Origin: Methanococcoides sp. LMO-2
GTDB lineage: Archaea; Halobacteriota; Methanosarcinia; Methanosarcinales; Methanosarcinaceae
Reading direction: 5' to 3'
DNA length: 64,000 nt
NCBI RefSeq assembly: GCF_038432375.1
Contig: NZ_JBCAUS010000002.1
Coordinates: forward strand, 558,001-622,000
Numbering within the stretch: the stretch's first letter is position 1; the number at the start of each line of letters is the position of its first letter. The notes below the pieces were generated by a model, which was given only the letters and a program-made list of their open reading frames with translations, did not search any database and was not told where the DNA came from. Shown here one piece after another: positions 1,598 to 51,919 of the stretch. The translations under genes and the position numbers were made by a program.

Positions 1598-4003
1598 ATG
1601 GGAGATAGCAAATACATTCGATGGTTCGAAGAGATCAGTATAGAAGACATTCCTCTGGTAGGAGGTAAGAATGCCTCGCTCGGTGAGATGTACCGGGAGC
1701 TCACAGAGAAGGATATCAGTATACCCAATGGTTTCGCGGTCACAGCAGAAGCATACTGGCATGTCCTGGAATCTGCAGGCGTCCTCCAGGATCTTAAAGA
1801 TACACTTGAAGGACTGGATACATCCGATGTCAGTGATCTTGCCGAGAGAGGGAAAAAGGCAAGGAGTATCGTCCTCGATGCAGGGATACCGGATGACCTA
1901 TGGGAAGAGATAAAGGAAGCCTACGACAAATTGAGCGAGGAATACGGTTCAGAGACCGATGTTGCGGTTCGCAGTTCTGCAACAGCAGAGGATCTTCCTG
2001 ATGCCTCTTTTGCAGGACAGCAGGAAACCTACCTGAATATACACGGCTACCACTCACTGAAAGATGCATGTAACCGATGCTTTGCTTCCCTTTTCACGGA
2101 CAGGGCGATCTCCTATCGTGTGCATCACAACTTCGACCACTTCAAGGTCGGCCTTTCAATAGGCGTCATGAAGATGGTGAGATCAGACCTCGCATCCAGC
2201 GGCGTGATCTTCACAATCGACACCGAATCCGGGTTCGAGGATGTTGTTTTCATTACAGGGGCCTACGGTCTCGGTGAGAATGTCGTGCAGGGAGCTGTCA
2301 ATCCGGATGAGTTCTACGTCTTCAAGCCCACCCTGAAAGAAGGCTACAAGCCAATAATCAAGAAAAAAAGGGGCAGCAAAGCTATAATGATGATCTACGG
2401 ACGCGGGGATTCGCGTGTGCTTACCCGTAACGTTGAGGTTCCCCTTGCAGAGAGGAGGAAGTTCTGTATCAACGATGTCGAGATCCTCCAGCTTGCGAAG
2501 TACGCTGCTACCATCGAGGATCATTATTCTAAAAAGAAAGGGAAAGCTGTGCCTATGGATATCGAGTGGGCGAAGGACGGTAACACCGGCGAGTTGTTCA
2601 TTGTACAAGCAAGACCCGAGACCGTGCAATCGAGGAAGAGGAAGGATGTCCTTGAGACCTACTTCCTTGACGATCGCTCGAACGTTCTTGTAAAGGGCAG
2701 GAGTGTGGGTGACAAGATCGCAGCCGGAAAGGTGCATGTGATCGATGATGTATCCAAACTGCCATCTTTCAAACAGGGAGAGATACTGGTAGCTGATACC
2801 ACAACACCTGACTGGGAACCTGTCATGAAACGTGCCACTGCCATCATTACTAACAAAGGCGGAAGAACATGCCATGCAGCCATAGTCAGCCGTGAGCTGG
2901 GAGTTCCGGCCGTTGTGGGTGCAGAGGATGCAACTGAAAATCTGAAGAACGGAATGGATGTAACATTGAGCTGTGCTGAAGGCGATATCGGCAGGATCTA
3001 TGAAGGAATACTGCCTTTCCATGTGGAAACCGTTGACCTCAAGGACCTTGGAGATACGAAGACAGAGATGATGATGAACCTTGGAAATCCGGAAGAGGCC
3101 TTTGGACTTTCAATGATACCAAACGACGGCATCGGACTGGCAAGACTTGAGTTCATCATCACCAGCTACATCAAGGTCCATCCAATGGCACTGGTGCATC
3201 CTGAAAAGGTGGAAGATGAAAATGCCCTCAGAGAGATAGAGAAGCTCACTGCCGGATATGAAAACAAGGAAGACTATTTCGTGGAGAAACTTTCCCAGGG
3301 AGTAGCCACAATTGTAGCTTCGTTCTACCCGAAACCCGTTGTCGTACGCATGAGTGACTTCAAATCCAACGAATATGCCAGCCTAATCGGCGGTGAGTAC
3401 TTCGAGTTCGAGGAGAGCAACCCGATGATCGGTTTCAGGGGAGCATCTCGTTATTATGATGAACGCTACAGGGAAGGGTTTGCACTTGAGTGCAAGGCCA
3501 TGAAGAAGGTCAGGGACGAGATGGGACTGAAAAACCTCATCCTCATGATACCTTTCTGCAGGCGTGTGGAAGAAGCGGAAAAAGTGATCGCAGAGATGGA
3601 AAAGAACGGTCTGGTAAGAGGACAGAACGGCCTGCAGGTCTATGTAATGTGCGAGATCCCAAGCAATGTCCTGCTGATAGATGAGTTCAGCAAATACTTT
3701 GATGGCTTCTCCATAGGCTCCAATGATCTCACCCAGCTGACCCTTGGTGTGGACAGGGATTCGGAGATACTGGCATCGTCATTCGATGAGAGGGATGAGG
3801 CTGTGAAGAAGATAGTTTCCATGGCAGTGCAGGGAGCAAAAAGGAATGGCAAGCACAGTGGCATCTGTGGTCAGGCGCCAAGTGATTTCCCGGAATTTGC
3901 TGAGTTCCTTGTGAAGGAAGGTATTGATTCGATCTCGTTGAATCCGGATTCTGTGATGAAGATCTCATTAAAGGTACTGGAGACCGAGAAAGAAATGGGA
4001 TGA
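1598..4003 (+). CDS. ppsA: phosphoenolpyruvate synthase
   Basis: This 801-residue enzyme makes PEP from pyruvate and ATP, releasing AMP and phosphate, the first gluconeogenic step from pyruvate. The N-terminal PEP/pyruvate-binding ATP-grasp domain spans about residues 1-345 (VGGKNASLGEM at 21, AVRSSATAEDLP near 123). The swivelling phosphohistidine domain has GGRTCHAAIVSRELG, giving catalytic His426. The C-terminal TIM barrel ends with the conserved GICGQAPSD cysteine loop. Length fits the family. A GGGGGT ribosome-binding site precedes the ATG. It is a single-gene unit facing the convergent metX, with its own terminator. The opposing enzyme, pyruvate kinase, is at 40.7 kb. Confidence 0.95.
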   Translation: MGDSKYIRWFEEISIEDIPLVGGKNASLGEMYRELTEKDISIPNGFAVTAEAYWHVLESAGVLQDLKDTLEGLDTSDVSDLAERGKKARSIVLDAGIPDDLWEEIKEAYDKLSEEYGSETDVAVRSSATAEDLPDASFAGQQETYLNIHGYHSLKDACNRCFASLFTDRAISYRVHHNFDHFKVGLSIGVMKMVRSDLASSGVIFTIDTESGFEDVVFITGAYGLGENVVQGAVNPDEFYVFKPTLKEGYKPIIKKKRGSKAIMMIYGRGDSRVLTRNVEVPLAERRKFCINDVEILQLAKYAATIEDHYSKKKGKAVPMDIEWAKDGNTGELFIVQARPETVQSRKRKDVLETYFLDDRSNVLVKGRSVGDKIAAGKVHVIDDVSKLPSFKQGEILVADTTTPDWEPVMKRATAIITNKGGRTCHAAIVSRELGVPAVVGAEDATENLKNGMDVTLSCAEGDIGRIYEGILPFHVETVDLKDLGDTKTEMMMNLGNPEEAFGLSMIPNDGIGLARLEFIITSYIKVHPMALVHPEKVEDENALREIEKLTAGYENKEDYFVEKLSQGVATIVASFYPKPVVVRMSDFKSNEYASLIGGEYFEFEESNPMIGFRGASRYYDERYREGFALECKAMKKVRDEMGLKNLILMIPFCRRVEEAEKVIAEMEKNGLVRGQNGLQVYVMCEIPSNVLLIDEFSKYFDGFSIGSNDLTQLTLGVDRDSEILASSFDERDEAVKKIVSMAVQGAKRNGKHSGICGQAPSDFPEFAEFLVKEGIDSISLNPDSVMKISLKVLETEKEMG

Positions 4004-4089: not shown

Positions 4090-4139
4090 AAGGCAAAAAC
4101 AGAAAAAGTAAAAAGCAATCAACCGATCAGCCGGTTGAT
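4090..4139 (-). terminator. metX terminator overlapping its stop codon
   Basis: A perfect 8-bp stem, ATCAACCG (4118-4125) with CGGTTGAT (4132-4139), has a six-base loop and includes the metX stop codon. Reading leftward it is followed by T-rich stretches down to about 4090. Confidence 0.5.
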
Positions 4140-5585
4140 ATCCTCACTATCGATAATTCCAACAAGCCTCTTCTTCTCATCCACTACAGGCAAAGCGGAA
4201 ATACTGTGTCTTTCCATGCGCTTTGCACCTGCAACGATCGGCTCTTCGGGCGTTGCAACAAGAACTTCCTTTGTCATGATATCGTCCAGATCGTTGCATT
4301 TGAGTGCAACAGCCTTTGAGATATCCCAGGATGTTACGATGCCTGCAAGACAGCCTTTCTCATTTACCACCGGCAAATGTGTCAATCCTTCCTCGAACAT
4401 GACCTTTGCAGCGGTGTCGATGCTCACACCTTCCCTGATGGTGGCGACATCTTCGGTCATCACATCAGCAATGGATGTGTATGAAAGGAAATTGTGAACC
4501 ACGTAATTGATATGACCGCTCTCTAGGAGGAAAGCATCATGACCGTAACTGGAATCGATCTCCCTGTAGCTCACATCATGGTCGTTGAACAGGAGAGCCT
4601 CAACAATTTTCTTTGACTGGTATGGAGGATACAGCCAGTCCGATGTTATGGAAATAATCAGTATCTTTGATCTGATATCCTTCAGACCCTCTGCAAGGGA
4701 ACCATTCTTTGAAAGGTCGAAATAATCCACAGCTTTTGTCACATAGAGATAGGAATTGGCATCAAACCTTTCGGTAAATGTTTCTCCCTGGTATTTCAGG
4801 TAGCTCTCGACCTGGAAATCGTTTGACATATCGAATTTGAAGTTCTCACCCTGCTGCAACTCCCTGCCGAACTTCTCGTGCATGGAATCATCACTGAGAT
4901 ATGTGATATGAGCGATCATTCTAGCTGTGGCTAACCCATGCACAGGAGCCTTGCCGGAATAGTAATCTCCTTCGTTCCAGTCGGGATCTGAGACAATGGC
5001 ATTCCTTCCAACCTCGTTGAAGGCTATCTGCTGAGGTGACGAGACCGCTGTGGAAGCGATCACAACTGCTTTCCTCACGATGTCCGGATAAGCGACCGTC
5101 CACTGGAGGGTCTGCATACCACCCATGGAACCGCCTACTACGGCAAAAAGGGCTTTGATCCCGAGATGTTCTATCAGCTTCTTCTGAACATTGACCATAT
5201 CGCCTATAGTTATCACCGGAAAAGTAATTCCATACGGTTTACCTGTGTCCGGGTTCAGTGATGCAGGACCTGTGGTCCCCATACAGCCACCCAGTACATT
5301 TGAACATATTACGAAATACCTGTCAGTATCCAGGGCTTTCCCCGGTCCGATGAGATCCTCCCACCAGCCGGGTTTGCGGTCATCGGGACTGTGTCTGCCT
5401 GCAGCATGTGCATCGCCAGTGAGGGCGTGGCAGACAAGGATTGCGTTACTTTTGTCCTTGTTCAGATTACCATAGGTCTCATAGGCGACTCTGATATCCT
5501 TCAGGGTCTGCCCTCCTTCTAAAAGGAAATCACCTTTTATCGTATGAAAATTGGTTCCAACAATACCTACGGACCTTTCACTCAC
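4119..5585 (-). CDS. metX: homoserine O-acetyltransferase with C-terminal CBS pair
   Basis: This 488-residue protein transfers an acetyl group from acetyl-CoA to homoserine, supplying the substrate of the MetY encoded just upstream. The alpha/beta-hydrolase domain covers about residues 1-370 with [12 protein letters not shown], a nucleophile elbow GGSMGG (Ser153), TSDWLYPP and YGHDAFL for the Asp/His of the triad. Residues from about 374 to 488 are two CBS domains, a likely adenylate-type ligand sensor and an extension absent from ordinary MetX. The start is GTG, overlapping the metY stop by four bases (GTGA), so translation is probably coupled. Confidence 0.92.
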
Positions 5586-6880
5586 TTCTGGGACCTCTCT
5601 AAAGCCTGATCAATGTCAGCAATTATATCTTCTGCATTTTCAAGACCTACGGACATCCTTATGAAATCATCGGTCACACCTGTCTGCTCACGTTCTTCCT
5701 TTGTGAGCTGCTGGTGTGTTGTGGATGCAGGGTGGACAACAAGTGTCTTTGCATCACCGATGTTTGCCAGGTGTGAAAGTAATTCCACGCTCTCGATGAA
5801 CTTCCTGCCTGCTTCCAGTCCGCCCTTGACACCGAATCCAAGGATAGCGCCATAGCTTCCTTCCAGGTATTTGCCTGCAAGTTCATGGGATGGATGATCC
5901 TCAAGGCCGGGGTAGTTAACCCATTCCACCAGAGGATGGGATGCAAGGTGCTTTGCGACCTTCAGTGCATTCTCACCGTGCCTCTGTACCCTTAAGGAAA
6001 GTGTTTCCACACCCTGTATGAACTGGAATGCATTGAAAGGGCTCATTGCAGGTCCAAGGTCACGCAGATGTTGTGTGCGTACCCTGAGTATGAAAGCAAG
6101 GTTTCCCATTCCCGGAATATCCCCGAAGGATTCCCAGAACTTCAGGCCATGGTAACTGGGGTCGGGTTCTGTGAACTCAGGGAATTTTCCATTGTCCCAG
6201 TTGAAGTTTCCGGAATCCACTATGATACCACCTATGGAAGTACCGTGACCTCCAAGGAACTTTGTTGCGGATAATACAACAATGTCTGCACCATGGTCTA
6301 TCGGCTTTGCGATACCTACACCTACAGTGTTGTCTACAATAAGTGGGACACCTGCGTCATGGGCGATCTTTGCGATCTTATCCAGATCCGGCACGTCAAG
6401 CTTTGGATTTCCGATGATCTCTACATAGATAGCTCGGGTCTTATCGGTGATAGCCTTCTCGAACTCTTCCGGTTTCGTGGAGTCCACAAAGTGAACCTTC
6501 CTTCCGAATTTCGGAAGGGTGTGATTGAAGAGCTGGTATGTGCCACCATAGAGATTATTCGCAGAGACTATCTCATCACCAAGCTGTGTGACAGCCAACA
6601 CTGTTAAGGAAATGGCAGCCATTCCTGAAGCTACGCCAAGTGCACCTGTACCGCCTTCGATAGCAGCCACTCTTTCTTCCAGCACACCGGTGGTCGGGTT
6701 CATCAGGCGTGTGTAGATGTTGCCGAATTCCTTCAGCGCGAAAAGGTTCGCTGCATGGTCTGCATCCTTAAAGAGATAGGCAGCGGTCTGGTAAATAGGA
6801 ACAGCGCGGGATCCCGTGGGGTCCGGCACATGTCCTGCATGCAATGCTAATGTATCTAATCCGTAATTCTTGTCAGTCAT
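5582..6880 (-). CDS. metY: O-acetylhomoserine sulfhydrylase (PLP-dependent)
   Basis: The 432-residue enzyme of the Cys/Met-metabolism PLP family makes homocysteine from O-acetylhomoserine and sulfide. Visible landmarks are [22 protein letters not shown]-type substrate contacts (YTRLMNPT near 56), the [12 protein letters not shown] loop, IVDNTVG with the cofactor aspartate, and [10 protein letters not shown] giving PLP-lysine Lys207. Its length and the long insertion after Lys207 favour sulfhydrylase over cystathionine synthase. A GAGGT ribosome-binding site overlaps the SepCysS stop codon nine bases upstream, placing it second in a three-gene operon. Confidence 0.92.
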
Positions 6881-6889
6881 AATTGTACC

Positions 6890-8269
6890 TCAGTTGATGT
6901 TAAGTTCGTATTTTTCAGCGATCTCAAGGAATGCATCCGAGAGATAGTGTATCTGGTCCCATGAAAGTCCGTATGTGCTCAGCTTCCAGCTTCTTGTAGC
7001 ACCCGGGAACTCGCCTACGATGCCACGTTTCTTCAGTTCGTCACTGAAGAAGTAGCCCCTGCGCTTGTGTGTCTTTGCAACCTTGTCGAAGCTGTTGGTT
7101 GTGTCCACCTTGGTAAGGGCATGCTTTCTCGGGAATTCGCTCAGCACTTCATTTCCTTCGATCCTCAGGAACTCGTTGAGGAAATAGTTGGATTTCTTGA
7201 CTTCCTCATCCCAGTGCTTTGTCCTTTCTTTTACATACGGGAACGATGCCATCATAGACAGCAATGGAGCTCCCATCAGTGTGCACCCAAGGAACTCGAC
7301 CTCCTTGATACCAAACTTCCTGCCAGTGACATCACCCACCATCTGTGTGGTCCTGAATATCTTGTCAGCCCATTCTTCCGTGGTTGCCAGCACTCCTGAC
7401 GGAGCCACTGAGGCCATGCTCTTGTGGCCGGAACCTACTATAAAGTCCGCACCGAGCTTCTTTCCATTTACAGGCATGATACCCACTGTATATGCCCCAT
7501 TGTACAGGAACGGAATTCCATACTCCTGTGCCACTTTACCGATACCGTAGATATCGTGTTCATTACATAGCAGATAGTCGAAATGGTCGATCATGATAAG
7601 GGACGGTAACTTTCCGGTCTCTTTCTTCACTTCATCTATCTTGTGTGCCACAGATTCGGCAGTGAGTATATTATCTTCGTTAACAGGAGCCTCTCTGATA
7701 GATCCACCAGCACCCTCTACAGCGAGGAACTCAGTATAATGTGCAAATGCAGATACGACCACATCATCACCCTTTTCAACAAGGGTTGATGCAACGGCCT
7801 GGAAACCTCTCCTGGCACCGGGAACAACTCGTGCCTGGTCCATTCCGACGAACTCAGCGAGATCTGTGTGGAATCCTGCGATCGAAGGCTTTTCGATCTT
7901 ATCAAGCCTGAAAGGCTTTCGGCAACTGTCACATGTTGAGTAACCGTCCCCATAAGCTATGACAGCTTTGCGGGCTTCCGGGGTCAGTCGGCCACCGGCC
8001 TGAATGGGCTGTATATTTATGAACTCCTCTTCCCTTGTACGGCACATAAGATCGCCCACAATACTGACAGGTTGTGTTTGGCCGTCTTTTGCGCCTATCT
8101 CCTCGACAAGGCCGCCAAGACCCGACACGATCTCAGAAAAACGTGCAGACTGCTCGTCGCTCATACCCGTAGGTAGAGCCTCTCTTACGATCTGCCTGAG
8201 ATCCTCCAGTGCAAACTGGGTTTCAAATATTTTGTTGGCGAGATATCTTTTATTGATTTGTTCATCCAT
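6890..8269 (-). CDS. pscS: O-phosphoseryl-tRNA:cysteinyl-tRNA synthase (SepCysS)
   Basis: This 459-residue PLP enzyme converts phosphoseryl-tRNA(Cys) to Cys-tRNA(Cys), the second step of tRNA-dependent cysteine formation in methanogens. The core begins near residue 82 (FINIQPIQAGGRLT) with GDGYSTCDSC giving Cys113 and Cys116, GHKSM giving PLP-lysine Lys283, and FLGCTLMG giving Cys329, which match the three catalytic cysteines known in this family. About 75 residues precede the core compared with roughly 380-residue homologues. This extension may replace the SepCysE scaffold used by other methanogens to bind SepRS (recalled, not tested). The AGGTGGT ribosome-binding site supports this ATG. It is the first gene of the pscS-metY-metX operon. 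Confidence 0.93.
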   Translation of the reverse strand: MDEQINKRYLANKIFETQFALEDLRQIVREALPTGMSDEQSARFSEIVSGLGGLVEEIGAKDGQTQPVSIVGDLMCRTREEEFINIQPIQAGGRLTPEARKAVIAYGDGYSTCDSCRKPFRLDKIEKPSIAGFHTDLAEFVGMDQARVVPGARRGFQAVASTLVEKGDDVVVSAFAHYTEFLAVEGAGGSIREAPVNEDNILTAESVAHKIDEVKKETGKLPSLIMIDHFDYLLCNEHDIYGIGKVAQEYGIPFLYNGAYTVGIMPVNGKKLGADFIVGSGHKSMASVAPSGVLATTEEWADKIFRTTQMVGDVTGRKFGIKEVEFLGCTLMGAPLLSMMASFPYVKERTKHWDEEVKKSNYFLNEFLRIEGNEVLSEFPRKHALTKVDTTNSFDKVAKTHKRRGYFFSDELKKRGIVGEFPGATRSWKLSTYGLSWDQIHYLSDAFLEIAEKYELNIN

Positions 8270-8612
8270 TCTGTTACCACCTGCTCGTTTAGGGACATAT
8301 GAAAAAGCGAATTACTATTTCGACTCCCCAGGCGATCGGTCTGCTATACGTGGACCGGTCTTCTTTCGGCCCTCTTTGATATGTTAACAGCGTTAACATT
8401 GTGCAGATTTACTCAACTGCTATATAAAAGTACCCGAATACAGGACTTATTAATTGCAGAAGTAAACCCACGCCATACTATGGTGGTAGTTACTGATATA
8501 TAAAGAAGAGGATAAAGGCAATGTATCATTATGTACACTAATATGTAATGTATAGCATTGAAGTACTCATATTAGGCATAGACTTTTATAGGGCGAATTT
8601 ATAATATACATG
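8270..8612. other. pscS upstream region outside the operator
   Basis: Besides the pscS promoter and operator this 340-base stretch holds an imperfect hairpin at 8459-8495, AGTAA/TTACT outside and CGCCAT/ATGGTG inside, with an internal loop. A GATATATAAAG box follows at about 8496-8506. No ORF is credible. Confidence 0.3.
8381..8428 (-). promoter_or_regulatory. pscS operon promoter with palindromic operator
   Basis: Reading leftward, TTTATATA at 8421-8428 predicts transcription start near 8398. A perfect inverted repeat, ATGTTAAC-N3-GTTAACAT at 8381-8399, covers this start. The position is typical of an archaeal repressor site, and a sulfur- or cysteine-responsive regulator is the natural guess. 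The leader to the pscS ATG is about 130 bases. Confidence 0.5.
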
Positions 8613-8786
8613 ATACGAGGTCAAGAGTTTGCCGTTTCTCTTGACCTTAGAGATGATCTGAAAAGTCCTAAGAGACTTTCAAAACTTCAAAGTGGGGGCA
8701 AGTGAATTGTCATATCACGGTCTTCTATCCCGTCGGACCGTGATATGCCACTGCATAATTTACTATGAGCGGACACTCTTTTTTGA
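8613..8786 (+). ncRNA. candidate structured small RNA
   Basis: Three hairpins lie in a row with no ORF: a 10-bp perfect stem (8618-8627/8638-8647), a 6-bp stem AAAGTC/GACTTT (8663-8678 region), and a 12-bp perfect stem CATATCACGGTC/GACCGTGATATG (about 8711-8747, 13-base loop). A CTTTTATA box at 8583-8590 predicts transcription start about 8613, just before the first hairpin. A T6 run at about 8779-8784 could end the transcript. It matches no RNA family I recognise. It could be a free small RNA or part of the leader of the downstream surface-protein gene. Confidence 0.45.
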
Positions 8787-8918
8787 ACTATGTATAAGAT
8801 AGATAGCCTGATCTCCATAAGTTAAATTATTAAAGCTTCTTAAGTAAATCTTAATAGTAAGGACAGACCAATATTACATATTCAATTATATTTGTTGGAT
8901 ATCCAGGCGGGGGTTACT

Positions 8919-10034
8919 ATGAAGATCGAACGAAAGTTATGGTTATTACCTATTCTCTTAATACTGCTTTTTGCAGGCAATGCAAATGCAGCTCTGATGT
9001 TTGACGCAGGAAACACAGTGATCATCGACGATCTCGTTGAGGATGATGTCTACCTTGCAGGTGATACACTGATCGTGAGCGGTACTGTTCTTGGCGATGT
9101 CGTTGCCACAGGAGGCACTGTCGAGATCCACGGGAACGTTTCCGGCGACCTCATCATTGCTGCAGGTGATGTGATCATTACCGGCGATATCGGGGATGAT
9201 GTCAGGGTAGCATGTGGTAATTTTGAACTTGATGGACAGGTAGGTGACGATCTACTGATAGCTGCCGGTTCGGTCTCAACAACCGACACCGCAAGCGTAG
9301 GCGGCGATACCACCATCAGAAGTGGTGATGCAGACATTGGAGGAAACTTCGGGGGACTGCTGGATGTCTCAGCCGGTGCCCTGATATTCGACGCTAATGT
9401 TGAGGGAAACGCAATACTGGATGCCTCTGACCTGACGATCCAGCCAAACTCCAGCATAAAGGGCAATCTCGAATACAGCACCTCAAAAGATATCTCTATC
9501 CCGGCAGGAGTTGTAGGTGAAGAGATAAGACCGGAGAAGCCAGCCCCACGCGAAGACAGCTTCGATGGCGAAGGCGTGCTCAATGTGATAACATTCATCG
9601 GCAAGATCGCGTATTACATGTTCCTCTTCGTACTGGGAGTAATATCCATCCTTGTATTCCCTTCCAAGACCGAAGAGATCGTAAGAGATATTCAGGAACA
9701 GCCATTCAAGAATGTCGCCGTCGGGCTCCTGATATTAGTAGCCACTATCATAGGATCACTAGTCCTGATGATAACCATCATTGGTATACCCATAGCCCTT
9801 TTCCTGCTACTCCTGCTGTTCATCGTCGTGATGATCGCAAAGATATACACTGCAATATGGCTGGGAGAGGTAGCGTTCAGAAAGATCGGATTCGAATATA
9901 ACCAATGGGGTGTACTGGCCCTTGGTCTCTTCCTGATACTGGTACTTACAGAACTGCCATATGTGGGAGGACTCACCGGTCTTCTGGTTACATTGGTGGC
10001 CATGGGAAGCATGTACTTTGCATTGAAGTACTGA
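8919..10034 (+). CDS. bactofilin-like beta-helix protein with C-terminal membrane segments
   Basis: The ATG at 8919, behind a GGGGGT ribosome-binding site, gives 371 residues. After a signal peptide (about residues 5-24, ending NANA), residues 30-200 are short glycine/aspartate/valine repeats of the polymer-forming, bactofilin-like right-handed beta-helix type (VSGTVLGDVVATGG, IHGNVSGDLIIAAG). From about residue 225 to the end there are four or five hydrophobic helices. The repeat domain is probably outside the membrane. Proteins of this plan (DUF8173-like) occur in archaea and bacteria without a firm function; an envelope-stabilising role is inference. A TTG 27 bases upstream is a poorer start. 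Confidence 0.75.
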   Translation: MKIERKLWLLPILLILLFAGNANAALMFDAGNTVIIDDLVEDDVYLAGDTLIVSGTVLGDVVATGGTVEIHGNVSGDLIIAAGDVIITGDIGDDVRVACGNFELDGQVGDDLLIAAGSVSTTDTASVGGDTTIRSGDADIGGNFGGLLDVSAGALIFDANVEGNAILDASDLTIQPNSSIKGNLEYSTSKDISIPAGVVGEEIRPEKPAPREDSFDGEGVLNVITFIGKIAYYMFLFVLGVISILVFPSKTEEIVRDIQEQPFKNVAVGLLILVATIIGSLVLMITIIGIPIALFLLLLLFIVVMIAKIYTAIWLGEVAFRKIGFEYNQWGVLALGLFLILVLTELPYVGGLTGLLVTLVAMGSMYFALKY

Positions 10035-13307: not shown

Positions 13308-13363
13308 CATACCGTTATGTTTTGATGAACATAACGGTATGGAATTAGGTTGATTATATAAAA
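13308..13363 (-). promoter_or_regulatory. modABC promoter with ModE-like box
   Basis: A perfect 14-bp inverted repeat with six-base spacer, CATACCGTTATGTT at 13308-13321 and its complement at 13328-13341, contains CGTTATGTT half-sites. These resemble the CGTTATAT-type half-sites, with the same six-base spacing, of the E. coli ModE operator (recalled). TTTTATATAATC at 13352-13363 on the leftward strand places transcription start near 13332, inside the repeat, so binding would repress the transporter. Confidence 0.65.
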
Positions 13364-50416: not shown

Positions 50417-51919
50417 TCATTCTCCTGAAAAACTATTGATATACTCTGTCTTGTTACCAAACCCAGCACGCTTTGCCAGTTTTGTCAATGCTTTATCGAA
50501 GCGGCTTCCGTACTGGGCAGCCTTTTTGCTGCGCTTCGTGATGACTTTCGGCAAGTCCAGCTTCTCGCCTACCCTTCGCAGTACCACTTTGTTCATACTC
50601 TCTGACATCTTGAATTTCTCAGGAATTGCCAGCGAGTACTCCACAAACCTTTCATCAAGATAAGGGAGACGCAGGGATACTCCTGTAAATGCTGCAACAG
50701 TGTCATCCCGGTATGTGTTTACCTCATGCATCTCAAGAATGTCCTTCAGGCAATCCCGGTTTATGTTATCGGATCTCTTGTATCGATTGTAACCTGCAAA
50801 CAGCTCGTCTGCTCCGGCACCTGCAAATAGGACATTGATGCCATCTTTCTTTGCTGCAACACTTGCAGCATACATGGTCATTGCAACACCGGTCTTCGGG
50901 ACACTGGCATCTTCTATCAGAGGCACAACCAACCCCAGATACTCTTCAACTGCCTCAAGATCGACCTCATGGATCTTCAGATCAAATCCAAGCTCTTCAG
51001 ATATCCTTTTAGCACATGCAATATCCGGAGAGGAAACTTCACCGGAAAGCCCGACCGTATAACAGGTCACTGAAACACTCTTCTCTTTGGCGATCTCATT
51101 ACAAATGGATGCCAGGATAGTTGAATCAATCCCTGCCGAGAACATGACTCCAAAATCCTCATCCGGCACACGTACTGAAACGGCCTCCCTGAGCAGTGCA
51201 AGCAATTTGTCTCTTACATCATCCTCCGAGCCCTTAACTTCAGGAAGTTGGGAAAGGAATTCCCTTTCATGCATCGTAACTGTGTCGTCCTTAAGGTCAT
51301 AGCACAATATTTGCCTTGGAGAAAGCTCCTTAACCTCAGTGTAACCTGATTTTTCAAGGAACTTCTTCTCAGAAGCAAAAGCAAGGCCTTCGGAAACATC
51401 ATACCAGAGAGGTTTAACGCCTATCAGGTCCCTGGCAAGATATATCCTGTCATTTGCTTTACATGCAAAAGCATAGACACCCCGAAGTTTACGCAGGGAT
51501 GAATCGAGAAAAGCAAGAGTTTGGGATATACCCGATACTTCGAAATTCATTCTTTTAAAGATGTCACTGAGGAATAATTGCATGAAATCGACGCCATTGT
51601 CCATGGTATCGGAAAAGATAGAACCTTGTGTGTTGCACAATTCATCCCAATTGTATAGATCAACATCACAAACAACGGTAATGTCGGCCCCGGATCCAGA
51701 AAGATGAGTTGTTGAAGGAGCCATAGAAGGATCAAAGAAACTTATCATGGAATCATCGGCTGTTAATTCAGACAACTGTGACCCGGATGAAAAACTAATG
51801 AGTTCATCCCTCGTATAGATAAGTGCATCATATTTTCCGCGATTTTCCATATCCCGGAAAATTGGAGCGGTGTCCACACCCATGTTACCTGTATTAAAAT
51901 AGCCTGCGATCCTGCTCAT
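50417..51919 (-). CDS. asparagine synthetase-like protein lacking the glutaminase cysteine
   Basis: The ATG at 51919 gives 500 residues, with a GATATATGG box about 25 bases upstream and no ribosome-binding site, so the transcript is probably leaderless. The N-terminal class II amidotransferase domain starts MSRIAGYF where active enzymes have MCGIAG, so the nucleophilic Cys2 is Ser. The synthetase domain is intact: FSAGIDSTILASI (PPi loop), FAGAGADELFAGYNRYKR and DTVAAFTGVSLRLPYLDERF. It may use free ammonia, like AsnA functionally, to amidate aspartate or another acid. A TTG start at 51940 would only add seven residues before the same motif. Confidence 0.8.
   Translation of the reverse strand: MSRIAGYFNTGNMGVDTAPIFRDMENRGKYDALIYTRDELISFSSGSQLSELTADDSMISFFDPSMAPSTTHLSGSGADITVVCDVDLYNWDELCNTQGSIFSDTMDNGVDFMQLFLSDIFKRMNFEVSGISQTLAFLDSSLRKLRGVYAFACKANDRIYLARDLIGVKPLWYDVSEGLAFASEKKFLEKSGYTEVKELSPRQILCYDLKDDTVTMHEREFLSQLPEVKGSEDDVRDKLLALLREAVSVRVPDEDFGVMFSAGIDSTILASICNEIAKEKSVSVTCYTVGLSGEVSSPDIACAKRISEELGFDLKIHEVDLEAVEEYLGLVVPLIEDASVPKTGVAMTMYAASVAAKKDGINVLFAGAGADELFAGYNRYKRSDNINRDCLKDILEMHEVNTYRDDTVAAFTGVSLRLPYLDERFVEYSLAIPEKFKMSESMNKVVLRRVGEKLDLPKVITKRSKKAAQYGSRFDKALTKLAKRAGFGNKTEYINSFSGE

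Follow-up and report, generated by a model that had tools for sequence, protein, structure and literature searches.

Only a small number of archaeal small RNAs have been defined through conserved structure and not by expression alone. Among the described examples, sRNA41 and sRNA162 of Methanosarcina mazei are trans-acting intergenic RNAs, and sRNA41 is known to mask ribosome binding sites (PMC5867862). The same species carries sRNA154, an intergenic, nitrogen-regulated small RNA whose loops have been proposed to pair with mRNAs (PMC5867862). In Methanolobus psychrophilus, nine conserved, cold-induced intergenic small RNAs with an upstream 'cold box' have been described from one genome (PMC5378194).

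The locus considered here lies in Methanococcoides sp. LMO-2, within a stretch of 64,000 nucleotides that was analysed as a whole (the window), and would encode an independent non-coding RNA, structured and about 170 nt long. It resembles sRNA154 in being intergenic, stably folded, from the same archaeal family and conserved within one genus (PMC5867862). It differs from sRNA154, however, in that covariance models find no homologue in any other genus of the family, Methanosarcina included. A further difference concerns the NrpR-type operator, whose consensus is GGTA-N6-TACC and which has no match within one mismatch between 4812 and 9783. Elsewhere in the window, the sole exact match to this consensus falls at 50710-50723. 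The closest functional analogues are sRNA41 and sRNA162 (PMC5867862), although no sequence or structure match was found in the other genera of the family and no ribosome-binding-site target was found for the present RNA. With the RNAs of M. psychrophilus, which were compared by description only, it has in common that it is conserved, intergenic, preceded by a common promoter-upstream motif and found in a related genus (PMC5378194); unlike them, it is present in single copy, and it is absent from the other 13 genera searched.

The initial annotation recognised no RNA family in this interval, and the database search bears this out. Rfam 15 gave no match in the window at the gathering threshold. 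The only family with any similarity was the bacterial Flavobacterium-1 RNA (RF02976), at 15.4 bits against a gathering score of 58.9 (E 1.8), a sub-threshold chance match. As for C/D or H/ACA guide RNAs, no Rfam guide family was matched, and no conserved box motifs were seen by eye in an alignment of the homologues (A1). A literature search for reported Methanococcoides RNAs returned nothing useful. The RNA is new to Rfam and of a known general kind, that of archaeal intergenic small RNAs such as sRNA154 and sRNA41.

The proposal of a candidate new structured small RNA is supported by its presence in all 11 genomes of the genus that were examined and by covariation, 'new' here meaning absent from Rfam and from the literature searched. 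On the comparative evidence, the locus is very probably a functional, genus-restricted structured non-coding RNA. The fuller statement, that this genus-restricted structured RNA is most likely a trans-acting regulator, is held with less assurance, as reasonably probable. The RNA combines genus-wide covariation support with absence from Rfam, and brings testable handles: an invariant candidate contact surface of 16-17 nt, a clear gene unit, a common candidate operator and, in one species, a natural decayed allele.

Layout of the interval between pscS and the bactofilin-like gene

The features of the interval are given below in window coordinates; groups A and B are the two sets of homologues defined in the next section.

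6890-8269, minus strand: pscS (SepCysS equivalog TIGR02539, 416 bits against a cut-off of 365)
8383-8397, no strand assigned: palindrome GTTAACAGCGTTAAC, about 114 nt upstream of pscS
8582-8591, plus strand: TATA-like box ACTTTTATAG, ~27 nt before the inferred start at 8613-8614
about 8598-8607, plus strand: second AT-rich box TTTATAATAT, present in groups A and B
8613-8786, plus strand: candidate small RNA gene, ends inferred; based on promoter-like and T-run positions, homologues in 11 genomes and covariation
8617-8648, plus strand: hairpin 1, 5'-terminal, 11 bp including one G-U, 10-nt loop
8631-8647, plus strand: GCCGTTTCTCTTGACCT, covering the hairpin-1 loop and 3' arm, the same in 10 genomes and 16/17 in the eleventh
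8662-8679, plus strand: hairpin 2, 6 bp in the window and up to 10 bp in relatives
8689-8698, plus strand: G-rich linker AAAGTGGGGG, largely single-stranded, between hairpins 2 and 3
8708-8750, plus strand: hairpin 3, perfect 12-bp core 8711-8722/8736-8747
8779-8784, plus strand: T-run, with T-rich sequence at much the same position in aligned relatives
8919-10034, plus strand: bactofilin-like gene (Pfam, 25.0 bits against a cut-off of 27.9)

The three consecutive hairpins of the initial annotation, with perfect stems of 10 and 12 bp, were all located as inverted repeats: the core of hairpin 1 pairs 8618-8627 perfectly with 8638-8647 over 10 bp, the stem of hairpin 2 pairs 8662-8667 with 8674-8679 over 6 bp, and hairpin 3 carries the core listed above. 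The interval is free of ORFs, as had been claimed, in that none of at least 50 aa lies within 8388-8891, and the RNA locus is single copy in the genome. Both neighbours were correctly named; the bactofilin match falls below the Pfam cut-off, so that the label 'bactofilin-like' is the right one.

The region as a whole folds with an energy of -60.5 kcal/mol, whereas dinucleotide shuffles give -42.7±4.2 kcal/mol (z -4.25), and none of 200 shuffles folded as well; in a divergent relative the folding z is -5.78. At least one perfect stem of at least 10 bp, with a loop of 3-16 nt, arose in only 17 of 5000 shuffles of the region, in keeping with the earlier expectation that such stems exceed chance.

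Other inverted repeats were seen in the window. A terminator-like hairpin of 11 pairs followed by T-rich sequence lies at 8334-8360 on the plus strand, in the upstream region of pscS, and at 13308-13341 a 14-bp inverted repeat with a 6-nt loop forms the window's longest perfect stem of this type.

Distribution and covariation within Methanococcoides

The homologues fall into group A (G000, G010, G007, G004, G001 and G005) and group B (G009, G008, G003, G002 and G006), which are hard to align by sequence except for the invariant 17-base core of hairpin 1. Of the 11 genomes of Methanococcoides, the genus of the window, 10 were matched in a DNA search. A covariance model (R1), built from six sequences of group A only and run on 112 whole genomes from the family, recovered four divergent group-B copies without positional information (E 6e-8 to 2e-10 per genome), and each of them lies upstream of pscS. 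A second model (R2), built from ten sequences, found the eleventh copy in G006 (E 6e-12), still beside the bactofilin-like gene, and the RNA is present in 11 of the 11 Methanococcoides genomes examined.

Beyond the genus, R2 matched no other genus among the 112 family genomes at an E of 1, a class-wide search of 238 genomes gave no match at an E of 0.1, and laxer filters applied to 27 family genomes gave none in genera other than Methanococcoides. A search without filters of the SepCysS loci of other genera, 19 in all, reached a best E of 0.44; the RNA was not found in the other 13 genera searched, and plasmids and viral contigs gave no match to it. Weak matches in G002 (C3) and G009 (C126), with E of 0.2-0.3, were rejected for their poor folds, and a match to G025 in the DNA search was merely a similar promoter before an unrelated gene. 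On the best explanation, the RNA either originated within Methanococcoides or is restricted to that genus.

In a ten-sequence structural alignment (A5), 93.7% of cells are paired and 11 of the 37 pairs show two-sided changes, with a covariation score of 0.363 compared with 0.204±0.019 in shuffled alignments and at most 0.101 in slid-partner controls. None of the 500 shuffles and none of the slid controls reached either the score or the proportion of paired cells; measures based on counting pairs or pair types are not clearly above the shuffles, 107 and 421 of the 500 having reached them. As the fitting of A5 made use of the structure, a fairer check is offered by the group-A alignment based on sequence only, in which RNAalifold recovers the same three stems with four two-sided pairs. 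The two closest relatives differ by a swap of U-A for C-G in stem 2. Many of the two-sided changes fall on the single split between groups A and B, and the independent events are therefore fewer than the count.

The stems differ in how they change. Hairpin 3 has seven pairs with two-sided changes, its arms being almost wholly rewritten between groups A and B with the shape kept, and hairpin 2 has four; hairpin 1, with 98% of cells paired, changes almost only on its 5' arm, nearly always in a manner that G-U pairing tolerates. G-U pairs exceed A-C mismatches by 34 to 15, which favours the plus strand as the transcribed one. The compensatory changes that the initial annotation suggested looking for in relatives are two-sided in stems 2 and 3 and pair-compatible in stem 1, and the absence of stem-preserving substitutions, which it had named as evidence against an RNA, did not occur.

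Comparison of the genomes shows that the three hairpins are maintained by selection. An origin as chance inverted repeats or as the remnant of a mobile element, for which nothing speaks beyond the presence of inverted repeats, is extremely unlikely in the face of the single copy, the orthologous position, the covariation and the lack of a plasmid or viral-contig match.

Predicted transcript ends, neighbouring genes and a decayed copy

Transcription would begin just before hairpin 1 and stop in the T-run, giving an RNA of about 165-175 nt, both ends of which we infer. Given that the TATA-like box predicts a start at ~8613-8614 and the T-run predicts the end, the coordinates 8613-8786 are good. 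The box ACTTTTATAG is kept in all six group-A sequences, and its aligned counterpart in group B is CTTTAAGTA. The earlier claim that a TATA box is spaced for a start just before hairpin 1 holds for the box and its distance, whereas the exact start is uncertain because of the second AT-rich box. This element may be promoter-proximal or an alternative TATA box, and in the latter case the RNA would start inside loop 1; in group B the better TATA match is so near hairpin 1 that the RNA might begin within the loop. The T-run, which had likewise been noted at the end, was found in place and is probably an archaeal U-rich transcription stop.

A start within the loop would accord with another reading, in which hairpin 1 is a DNA operator (a dyad) around the transcription start and the RNA, comprising only the remainder, has its 5' end in loop 1 as an unpaired seed. 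A start there would be set by the AT-rich box closest to hairpin 1, especially in group B, and the invariant 3' arm would then be the exposed 5' end. However, the loop differs in length by one base from group A to group B, conservation extends to the spacer itself, and nearly every change in the 5' arm is one that G-U pairing tolerates; we consider such an operator unlikely.

Less likely still is a dual-purpose gene for an RNA and a micro-peptide, in which GAGGU, a short way into the RNA from its 5' end, would serve as the Shine-Dalgarno sequence, a reading (M/L)PFLLT... of 6-14 codons would open within loop 1, at AUG in group B and at UUG in group A, and hairpin 1 would control its own translation. 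The (M/L)PFLLT reading is present in 11 of 11 genomes, and five of the six group-A sequences end LE-x-(I/V)-stop with changes that are largely synonymous or conservative. Yet the frame is not conserved to its stop, ending at 6, 10, 14 or >50 codons across species (after 6 codons in three group-B species, after 14 in two, and open for >50 in G004). Third codon positions are not spared among the invariant bases, and no such ORF takes in stems 2 and 3. As neither the length nor the stop of the micro-ORF is conserved, a peptide is unlikely. A 31-codon ORF from an ATG at about 8610 was also considered and rejected, being not conserved, with its ATG lost in relatives.

The independent RNA proposed here adjoins pscS in ten genomes. 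In group A and in G002 the bactofilin-like gene lies downstream on the same strand, an arrangement that would suit a cis-acting leader, riboswitch or attenuator of that gene. Such a role is nonetheless very improbable. Two group-B species (loci L014 and L015) keep the RNA although the gene that follows it is encoded on the opposite strand, from which it follows that the RNA does not serve the bactofilin-like gene as a leader. In G003 and G006 a phosphoesterase gene on the opposite strand intervenes between the RNA and the bactofilin-like gene, again with the RNA kept, and the bactofilin-like gene has a conserved promoter-like block of its own after the T-run.

The RNA is kept independently of the neighbouring coding genes, given the differing or opposite-strand downstream genes in group B and its separation from pscS in G006, which we take to be M. 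burtonii. The pscS side there is replaced by sequence that reads as transposase-like, and the RNA has been separated from pscS by rearrangement (loci L072 and L073, the latter at 2697-2833), lying elsewhere, still upstream of the phosphoesterase and bactofilin-like genes. This copy is decayed, with mismatches in hairpin 1, loss of the GGGGG linker and a fold no better than chance (z -0.47), so that the RNA is dispensable at least in G006. Overall, comparison between the genomes shows that the RNA occurs as a single copy, occupies an orthologous position next to pscS and does not depend on the gene downstream.

Proposed contact surfaces and a palindrome upstream of pscS

The independent RNA would act in trans, as a regulator that base-pairs with one or more mRNAs. 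The pairing would use the invariant loop and 3' arm of hairpin 1 (UGCCGUUUCUCUUGACCU), the GUGGGGG linker, or both, while hairpin 3 would mainly lend stability as a stem, with no constraint on its particular sequence. In hairpin 1, the loop and 3' arm (GCCGUUUCUCUUGACCU) show an invariance beyond the needs of pairing, and the linker GTGGGGG is kept in nine of the 11 genomes, reading GTGGGAG in G005 and being lost in G006. To judge from these patterns, hairpin 1 and the linker may act as contact surfaces, and hairpin 3 may have a structural or stabilising part.

In four genomes, searches for the complement of the invariant part of hairpin 1, loop plus 3' arm, with at most 3 mismatches allowed, and for the exact complement of the linker AAAGTGGGGG found no orthologous start-codon site besides the RNA gene itself. 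Duplex energies between the RNA and the 5' regions of pscS, bactofilin and nadA were no better than those of shuffles, in comparisons that leave out the pscS row for G000 and include one set based on mononucleotide shuffles. Pseudoknot or kissing pairs linking loop 1 (GCC), the GGGGG linker and loop 3 (CCC) are possible in some sequences and, as judged by eye, are not kept across the set.

The palindrome at 8383-8397 is probably the operator of some regulator. Its form, GTTAAC-N2-CGTTAAC, is rare, with two to four exact matches per genome. A copy with at most one mismatch stands in the upstream region of pscS in 11 of 11 genomes, about 110-150 nt upstream, and the palindrome also lies upstream of a nadA-like gene, named from a reading of its protein sequence, in the six genomes examined from groups A and B. 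Such an operator would probably link cysteine and NAD synthesis. In four of the five group-B genomes (G003, G006, G008 and G009), a near-copy occurs 60 nt before loop 1, just upstream of the AT-rich promoter of the RNA, which suggests that the RNA may be under shared control with cysteine/homocysteine and NAD synthesis. In some species, it would probably be co-controlled with pscS and nadA via the common operator.

On the same strand, pscS is followed by an O-acetylhomoserine sulfhydrylase-like gene and by metX with C-terminal CBS domains (4119-8269), a cluster whose gene content suggests a putative sulfur amino acid operon. A literature search on the known sulfur regulator IssR gave nothing useful. 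The wider idea that the RNA, pscS (tRNA-dependent cysteine synthesis) and nadA (Fe-S quinolinate synthase) might together form an undescribed palindrome-marked regulon, with the RNA as a sulfur- or Fe-S-responsive regulator of methanogens, is tentative and rather doubtful. As a matter of record, the palindrome lies at 2886-2900 in locus L081 and at 3083, 2838, 2622, 3065 and 2732 in loci L082, L083, L084, L086 and L087, respectively.
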